Source: Serratia symbiotica (GTDB lineage: Bacteria > Pseudomonadota > Gammaproteobacteria > Enterobacterales > Enterobacteriaceae). From it: a stretch of 52,457 bases of DNA. Below are positions 448 to 2,475 of the stretch, piece by piece; position 1 is the stretch's first letter; each line of letters begins with the position of its first letter. The notes beneath the pieces are model-generated. The model ran no database searches. It was not told where the DNA came from and saw only the letters and a list, made by a program, of their open reading frames with translations. The stretch spans positions 1-52,457 of the forward strand of contig JAAKDF010000012.1 in assembly GCA_011754105.1 (NCBI GenBank). Reading direction: 5' to 3'. The position numbers were made by a program, and so were the translations under genes.

Positions 448-2109
448 ATGGCTCAAGTCGCGAAAAAATTATTGGTGACGTGCGCGCTACCTTACTCAAA
501 TGGTTCCATCCATCTCGGCCACATGCTCGAGCACATACAGGCAGATATCTGGGTTCGTTACCAACGAATATGCGGCCACGAGGTTTATTTCATCTGTGCA
601 GACGATGCGCACGGCACGCCAATCATGCTGAAAGCACAGCAATTGAGCATTAAGCCGGAAACAATGATCGCGGAAATGAGCCAAGAACACCAACAGGATT
701 TCGCTGGTTTTAACATCAGCTATGACAACTATCATTCAACCCATAGTGATGAAAACCGTGAGCTGTCGAACCTGATTTACACTCGCCTGAAGGGAAAAGG
801 CTTCATCAAAAAGCGCACCATCTCCCAGTTGTACGATCCAGAGAAAGGCATGTTCCTGCCTGACCGTTTCGTGAAAGGCAACTGCCCAATATGCAAAGCA
901 GCAGATCAATACGGCGATAACTGCGAAGTTTGCAGCGCAACCTATAGCCCGACCGAACTGCTCGAGCCAAAATCTGTGGTTTCCGGTGCTAGGCCAGTGA
1001 TGCGTGATTCCGAGCATTTCTTCTTCGACTTGCCTGGGTTCAGCGTAATGCTAAAAGCATGGATCCGTTCTGGTGCACTGCAAGAGCAGGTGGCGAACAA
1101 AATGCAGGAGTGGTTCGAGTCTGGTCTACAGCAGTGGGACATCTCCCGCGATGCGCCTTACTTCGGCTTCGAAATCCCAGATGCACCGGGCAAATATTTC
1201 TATGTCTGGCTGGACGCGCCTATCGGTTACATGGGGTCTTTCAAAAATTTGTGCGACAAGCGCAGTGATGTCGATTTCGACGAGTTCTGGTGTAAAGACG
1301 CCAGCACCGAGCTTTATCACTTTATCGGCAAAGACATCGTTTATTTCCATAGCCTCTTCTGGCCAGCGATGCTAGAAGGTAGCCACTTTCGCAAACCAAC
1401 TAACCTCTTTGTGCACGGTTACGTAACTGTGGACGGTGCAAAAATGTCTAAATCACGCGGTACCTTTATTAAAGCTGGGACTTATCTACAGCATCTGGAT
1501 GCTGACTGCTTACGTTATTATTACGCCGCTAAGCTGTCTTCCCGCATCGACGATATCGACCTAAATCTGGAAGATTTCGTACAGCGTGTGAATACCGATA
1601 TTGTCAACAAGGTGGTCAACCTGGCGTCCCGCAACGCCGGCTTTATCAGCAAGCGTTTTGGCGGTCAATTGGCCGATAAACTGGCCGATCCTGCGCTCTA
1701 TCACACCGTCATCGCTGCGGCAGAGCATATTGGTGACGCCTACGCTAGCCGCGAATTCAGCCGTGCGATCCGCGAAATCATGGCGCTGGCTGATCTGGCC
1801 AACCGCTATGTGGATATGCAAGCGCCGTGGGTAGTGGCAAAGGAAGCAGGCCGCGATACCGACCTACAGGCCATCTGCTCAATGGGGATCAACCTGTTCC
1901 GCGTGCTGATGACATATCTGAAGCCGGTGCTGCCAATGTTGGCTACGCGCAGCGAATCCTTTCTCAACACCGAACTGCGCTGGGATACGTTTCAGCAGCC
2001 GCTCCTAGGACATCAGATCAACGTGTTCAGCACCTTGTTTAAGCGTATCGATCTCAACCAGGTAAACTACATGATCAACGCCTCGAAAGAAGATATAACC
2101 TTTGCCTAA
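448..2109 (+). CDS. metG: Methionyl-tRNA synthetase, catalytic and anticodon-binding part
   Basis: The product charges tRNA-Met with methionine in the cytoplasm. The class I signatures are present: HLGH at residues 22-25 and KMSKS at 332-336. A zinc-binding insert with two CxxC pairs lies around residues 146-162. The helical anticodon-binding domain follows to about residue 540. The enteric protein has about 677 residues; this frame stops at a TAA (2107-2109) after 553, exactly in the linker before the C-terminal OB-fold domain. The downstream domain continues in the same frame from 2110. It is established for the E. coli enzyme that fragments of about 550 residues are active monomers, so this product is probably functional. 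No strong Shine-Dalgarno is visible before the ATG. Confidence 0.93.
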
Positions 2110-2112
2110 CTG

Positions 2113-2475
2113 GTGGGCACCCCGTTAGCTGATAATTCTATTCAGAGTACCATAACCTTTGATTATTTTGCCAAGGTAGATATGCGCATCGCGCTGATCA
2201 CCTGCGCCGAGTTTGTCGCAGGCTCTGACAAACTGTTGAAACTGCAACTGGATCTAGGGGGCGAATCACGCCAGATCTTTTCAGGCATCCGTGCTACCTA
2301 TCCAGACCCGCAAGCACTAGAAGGCCGTTTAACCATCATGGTAGCCAACCTAGCACCCTGCAAAATGCGCTTTGGCATCTCCGAAGGCATGGTTATGTTA
2401 GCTGGTTTAGGGGAAAAAGAAATCTTCCTGCTCAGCCCAGACAGCGGCGCCCAACCTGGCATGCCAGTTAAATAA
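2113..2475 (+). CDS. metG: Detached C-terminal tRNA-binding domain of methionyl-tRNA synthetase
   Basis: The frame continues directly from the catalytic part after a single TAA. It encodes the Trbp111-type OB-fold that forms the homodimer and gives non-specific tRNA affinity in enteric MetG ([59 protein letters not shown]). The fold looks intact from start to the natural stop, with no further frameshift. The earliest start is GTG at 2113, only four bases past the TAA; I see no good ribosome-binding site, so expression would need stop readthrough or coupled re-initiation. It may be a stand-alone tRNA-binding protein, a readthrough extension, or a recently orphaned domain. The preserved reading frame slightly favours expression or a very recent mutation. 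Confidence 0.7.

Follow-up and report, generated by a model that had tools for sequence, protein, structure and literature searches.

The DNA that we analysed (the window) is a single contig of 52,457 nucleotides from Serratia symbiotica, an aphid symbiont whose genome is represented by 1.535 Mb in 37 contigs; this contig is C12. The genome shares its genus with 29 others, which matches to named records identify as Serratia. Near its beginning lies metG, the gene for methionyl-tRNA synthetase (MetRS), and its reading frame occupies positions 448-2475 of the forward strand. Translation gives 553 codons, a TAA at 2107-2109 (codon 554), another 121 codons, and the original stop codon at 2473-2475. 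Within 448-2475, there is no other in-frame stop ahead of the terminal one. The part that ends with the TAA (448-2109, forward strand), which we will call the body, includes a MetRS catalytic domain (PF09334) at residues 9-396 and an anticodon-binding domain (PF19303) at residues 417-539, so that both of these Pfam domains are complete before the stop. The translated body also contains the HLGH and KMSKS motifs and the cysteines of the zinc knuckle. Past the TAA, the frame still matches the tRNA_bind domain (PF01588), with a score of 78 bits where 27 would suffice for a match. A preliminary description of this DNA had reported a lone TAA with 553 codons before it and 121 codons in the same frame after it, and both the translation and Pfam bear this out.

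We divided the rest of the frame into a fast-changing linker (codons 541-575, 2068-2172, forward strand), whose boundaries are our own choice, and the OB-fold domain (codons 576-675 plus the original stop, 2173-2475, forward strand). The OB frame is open and has no insertion or deletion relative to the sister genomes; the statement in the preliminary description that it bears no further damage is correct. The earliest candidate for a restart past the TAA is a GTG at 2113-2115 (forward strand), which has no Shine-Dalgarno match and a duplex energy of +0.4. Farther on, there is an in-frame ATG at 2182-2184 (codon 579, forward strand), with AAGG upstream and a duplex energy of -4.7.

There are inverted repeats on both sides of metG. 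One pair is at 3-40 and 2777-2814 (38 nt, 89%) and another is at 72-135 and 2684-2747 (64 nt, 81%). These look like the remnants of one insertion-sequence family.

Origin of the stop

In all three sister genomes (G026, G027, and G028), the same 2028 bases are unbroken and form a single frame of 675 codons, with glutamine at codon 554. At the DNA level, these genes are 92-96% identical to the metG of the window. The metG of G028 is identical to that of a named record (L033), and we take G028 to be Serratia symbiotica Sm Midelt. An internal stop is also absent from 25 of 26 further loci from the genus (L007-L032), with L026 as the exception. In the tree, the window groups with G027. Because all three sisters are unbroken and have glutamine at 554, the stop is derived: it arose on the branch that leads to the window. 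The comparison with relatives that the preliminary description had suggested therefore points to a stop that is specific to the window. A derived change with intact close relatives is also what we would expect of the domain loss in symbiont metG genes. We found no strain that shares the TAA at codon 554 among the genomes that we compared, and the age and the fixation of the stop rest on one assembly. A literature search, mostly of papers that are available without a subscription, turned up no paper on this strain's metG stop.

The preliminary description emphasized that the stop falls exactly between the enzyme body and the OB-fold domain. This placement is right, but it is less remarkable than it might seem. 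A single transition would create a stop at any of 40 codons of the ancestral gene that we inferred; 6 of these lie past codon 540, 2 of which fall within the linker. A stop past codon 540 would probably be tolerable, and a stop before about codon 545 would presumably be lethal, so a stop in the linker is not surprising. Also, the linker is the fastest-changing part of metG on the window's branch: it has 7 replacement changes plus the stop versus 3 silent changes, as compared to 21 replacement and 44 silent changes in the rest of the gene (Fisher p = 0.017, with the stop counted as a replacement). C>T or G>A account for 48 of the 76 changes in metG on this branch.

Constraint on the OB-fold domain and the loss of arginine 638

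On the window's branch, there are 5 replacement and 12 silent changes in the OB part and 16 and 32 in the body, and by this ratio the OB part is no worse off than the body (Fisher p = 1). In a codon model, omega on this branch is 0.14 for the OB part and 0.18 for the body, and omega = 1 is rejected for the OB part (2dlnL = 14.3, p = 1.6e-4). A count-based check that uses the branch's own spectrum of silent changes, for which the neutral N/S is 2.3, agrees (binomial p = 7e-4 for the OB part). A simulation of the OB part, in which 16 changes were used in place of 17, put P(N<=5) at 0.012, and at 0.006 under the added requirement that the sequence be free of stops. The comparison of dN/dS that the preliminary description had proposed thus argues against neutral change of the OB part, while a domain in use and a recent stop both fit. 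The purifying signal could reflect a young stop or continued use of the OB domain, and the test does not separate them. If we assume that constraint ended with the nonsense mutation, then the best estimate for the age of the stop is 0-12% of the branch, with upper bounds of 31-42% (likelihood, 95%) or 44-50% (posterior, 95%), depending on the constraint that is assumed to have preceded it. That a frame stays open past a stop is no evidence of a product.

The silent rate of the OB part on the window's branch is about twice that of the body (12 changes in 100 codons versus 32 in 540; Poisson p = 0.018).

Omega for the OB part does not differ between the window's branch and the sister branches (p = 0.24). 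On the other symbiotica branches, omega is 0.33 for the OB part, versus 0.03 on the branches of free-living Serratia (2dlnL = 20.0, p = 8e-6). Relaxation is weaker in the body, where omega is 0.17 on the other symbiotica branches and 0.07 on those of free-living Serratia (p = 0.0015). The private changes of the three sisters show no excess of replacements in the OB part (8N/9S) relative to the body (18N/36S; Fisher p = 0.39). At sites of the OB part that are nearly invariant, the window has changed at 3 of 61, G027 at 5, G028 at 2, and G026 at none; the window's body has changed at 16 of 372 such sites, which is about the same share. So G027, whose metG is unbroken, has more damage at conserved OB sites than the window does. 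Its metG (L004) also has 4 replacement and 0 silent private changes in the OB part.

One conserved site deserves attention. Residue 638 of MetG (codon at 2359-2361, forward strand) aligns with R75 of Trbp111. According to PMC11286949, R75 is a main contact for the 3' end of the tRNA, and the R75A mutation nearly abolishes binding. All 105 reference rows of MetG (100 distinct OB sequences as DNA and 78 as protein, with some strains present twice, and leaving out the window, L004, L005, L006, and L033) have arginine at residue 638, where the window and its closest sister, G027, have cysteine. Of the four residues of Trbp111 that contact the 3' end of the tRNA (K33, R75, S82, and M85), the other three are kept in the alignment with the window. 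Because Cys638 is shared with G027, whose metG is unbroken, the arginine was lost before the stop arose. It is not certain that binding was lost along with it, as Arc1p has valine at the place of R75 (PMC11286949). G028 has other changes from arginine to cysteine at conserved OB sites (R608C and R641C). Together, the relaxed constraint on the other symbiotica branches and the loss of the arginine suggest that the OB domain was already failing before the stop, though the few changes at nearly invariant sites in the window, and their absence in G026, speak against this.

Truncated and split MetG in other genomes

We searched 71 genomes (67 non-Serratia and 4 Serratia) with the intact sister protein. 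These were chosen by eye from a table of 392, mainly for a size of at most about 2.5 Mb, and G097 and G175, each with one PF01588 match, were added. The survey began with 111 genomes, of which 40 were dropped (many were repeats of the same genus), and 20 genomes without a match lie outside both sets. Among the matches listed, the match to the intact sister MetG ends at residue 535-559 in 61 of the 67 non-Serratia genomes, which should not be read as a frequency for the family, as the survey is enriched for genomes without the OB domain. Weak remnants of the domain would fall below the matches listed. In 16 of these 61 rows, there is a stop inside the aligned stretch, and the bodies there are not all shown to be intact. 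As for the remaining 6 genomes, G064 has a complete protein, G163 has two frames, G067, G107, and G146 continue past residue 580 only through stops, and the body of G079 is broken. Similarly, the first stop is at residue 545-567 in 25 of the 26 best-scoring non-Serratia loci among the 30 returned (G064 is again complete). Remnants of the OB domain persist 3' of the body in G111, G177, and G408. A candidate remnant in G083 (E = 0.001) was dropped because it was absent from a repeat search at E of 0.01 or better.

The window's MetG resembles these truncated proteins in that it has a complete body that ends near residue 545-567. The OB part is neither decayed nor deleted: because its frame is open and lacks indels, the window's metG represents an early stage at most. 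The closest parallel to it is in G163 (L167, G163:C1:91535-93569), where a frameshift in the linker splits the gene into a body of 563 residues and an OB domain that is undamaged but lies in a second frame, overlapping the first. This OB frame is open for 139 amino acids, with about 70% identity. The genome of G163 is 1.4 Mb in a single contig, and it is the sole genome of its genus in our collection.

We also noticed two other variations. In G157, there is a second copy of MetG residues 400-528, with 64% identity, directly behind the truncated metG (L163, G157:C1:59068-59454), which is probably a partial tandem duplication of metG. And G097, G218, and G175, which have genomes of 2.1-3.3 Mb, encode MetG without a detected OB domain (L156, L157, and L158), so the loss of this domain is not confined to strongly reduced genomes.

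Explanations for the stop and comparison with known systems

Could the TAA at 2107-2109 be an error of sequencing or assembly? The assembly is a draft, and assembly errors do occur in our collection: in L026, the metG of a 5.9 Mb genome (G020), the frame is broken at codon 26 by one additional base. Because metG is essential, this break is most simply explained as an assembly error, and it probably is one; it is the only case among 26 loci of the free-living type from Serratia. The TAA, on the other hand, is a substitution of the class that dominates the window's branch, and it lies among other changes in the linker. Furthermore, most of the neighbouring genes that we compared lack lesions. 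We used 32 ORFs of 100 amino acids or more from G026 as references. The window matches 29 of these, and 22 of the 29 are free of frameshifts and stops in the aligned part, although these blocks were chosen because they could be aligned, so the count favours intact genes. Lesions are present in the other 7, of which 3 have frameshifts. (The preliminary description held that neighbouring genes decay freely, which is overstated for these blocks.) We consider an error to be very unlikely. It seems just as doubtful that readthrough of the TAA, whether basal or programmed, still yields some full-length MetG. The frame has stayed open past a single stop, and the ancestral residue at 554 is glutamine, which near-cognate tRNAs commonly insert at stops. 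But TAA is read by both release factors, and there are two release-factor genes of the PCRF type, whose frames (367 and 358 amino acids) are open and have no stop in the match. No tRNA with a TTA anticodon (an ochre suppressor) is among the 35 that ARAGORN called around 36 Rfam places, in a set that is incomplete and has no tRNA for Trp or Glu; the two places without a call are C26:130-203 and C7:27863-27935. Also, the codons around the TAA are the fastest-changing part of metG and show no conserved cassette. Programmed readthrough would be expected to keep the stop and its context across strains, and 3 of 3 sisters lack the stop.

The place at C26:130-203 (L133) lies between two tRNA-Gln genes and matches the tRNA family weakly, at 44.8 bits. 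It looks decayed, and by its position in the gene order, it would presumably be metU.

Another explanation is that the gene has undergone fission, so that the OB part is translated separately, from the GTG at 2113 or the ATG at 2182, and acts in trans, as Trbp111 does. The open frame and the purifying type of change on the window's branch would fit with this, as would G163, where overlapping frames encode the body and an OB domain without damage, although that comparison comes from one genome that is alone in its genus. And the OB fold does have stand-alone relatives in the PDB, with Trbp111, YgjH, and CsaA among them. However, at the two starts that we scored, we see no initiation site that is new to the window, nor the start with an initiation signal that a free-standing protein of the Trbp111 type should have. 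The GTG has no ribosome-binding match, as mentioned above, and the ATG and its AAGG are ancestral (all 5 relatives that we compared have the ATG, and 4 of the 5 have the AAGG). Starting at the ATG would also drop a segment that aligns with Trbp111 up to residue 16, and residues 1-15 are part of the dimer interface (PMC11286949). Moreover, the key arginine at 638 was gone before the stop. The rest of the genome offers no replacement that we could see: there was no second metG among the matches listed, which were the best 3 of 5 for the full-length query, and the two other listed matches are weak (26% and 35% identity, across short stretches of frames of about 900 amino acids). PF01588 is found in the window's genome only in metG and in one frame of 801 amino acids, which we take for pheT, so we saw no spare OB protein. 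We judge fission to be highly improbable. We also thought of a more general scenario, in which the cell would go on producing the OB domain as a small protein of its own once the linker is split, acting in trans on MetRS or on tRNA; the split of G163 by a frameshift would be an independent instance, and symbionts would pass through a stage with a two-piece MetRS before they lose the domain. This seems quite unlikely to us.

Instead, we think that the stop is a recent nonsense truncation that removed a dispensable OB domain and that it represents an early stage of the domain loss that is known from insect symbionts. We would give this a probability of about 85%. The analysis itself shows a derived stop, an intact body, an OB part that still looks conserved, an arginine that went before the stop, and the same end point in other genomes. 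Of the three possibilities raised in the preliminary description, a very recent loss fits best, while fission and programmed readthrough gained no positive support from the PF01588 matches, the tRNAs, the release factors, or the potential starts.

The C-terminal OB fold helps to hold the tRNA, and it supports dimerisation in some MetRS. In a symbiont of the Serratia symbiotica type that is reducing its genome, this contribution may be dispensable. The nonsense substitution in the linker would truncate MetRS to the 553-residue body, which would stay active on its own, to judge from a shortened E. coli enzyme. The OB fold had already lost its key tRNA-contact arginine by then. The OB part presumably yields no product, and its sequence would be expected to erode and then to be deleted, as in other symbionts. 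This suggests an order of events: constraint relaxes, the tRNA-contact arginine is lost, a stop arises in the linker, and the domain erodes.

The shortened E. coli enzyme has 547 residues and is active despite its C-terminal truncation (Mellot et al. 1989, cited by PMC5013485), which agrees with the remark in the preliminary description that the E. coli enzyme remains active when cut near residue 550. It ends at nearly the same place as the window's body, but it is a laboratory construct, while the stop in the window is natural. By its sequence match, the window's OB domain has the same fold as Trbp111 (1pyb, 8vtz), and the alignment covers the tRNA-binding loop. In contrast to the window, Trbp111 is encoded by a free-standing gene with its own start, and it has R75 where the window has cysteine.

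The most similar cases are from other symbionts. In Moranella endobia, as well as in further endosymbionts whose genomes are reduced, the putative tRNA-binding domain of MetG has been lost, as in the window, according to PMC3620526; the anticodon-binding domain is reported there to be lost as well, whereas the window keeps it. In S. symbiotica SCc and STs, PF01588 has been lost from MetG and the body has been kept (PMC5013485), which is like the window's product. In those two strains, the domain is reported to be lacking, while in the window, its sequence can still be read past a single stop. The published cases known to us concern the end state of domain loss in metG, and the window's genome shows an early step, with sisters that are unbroken.
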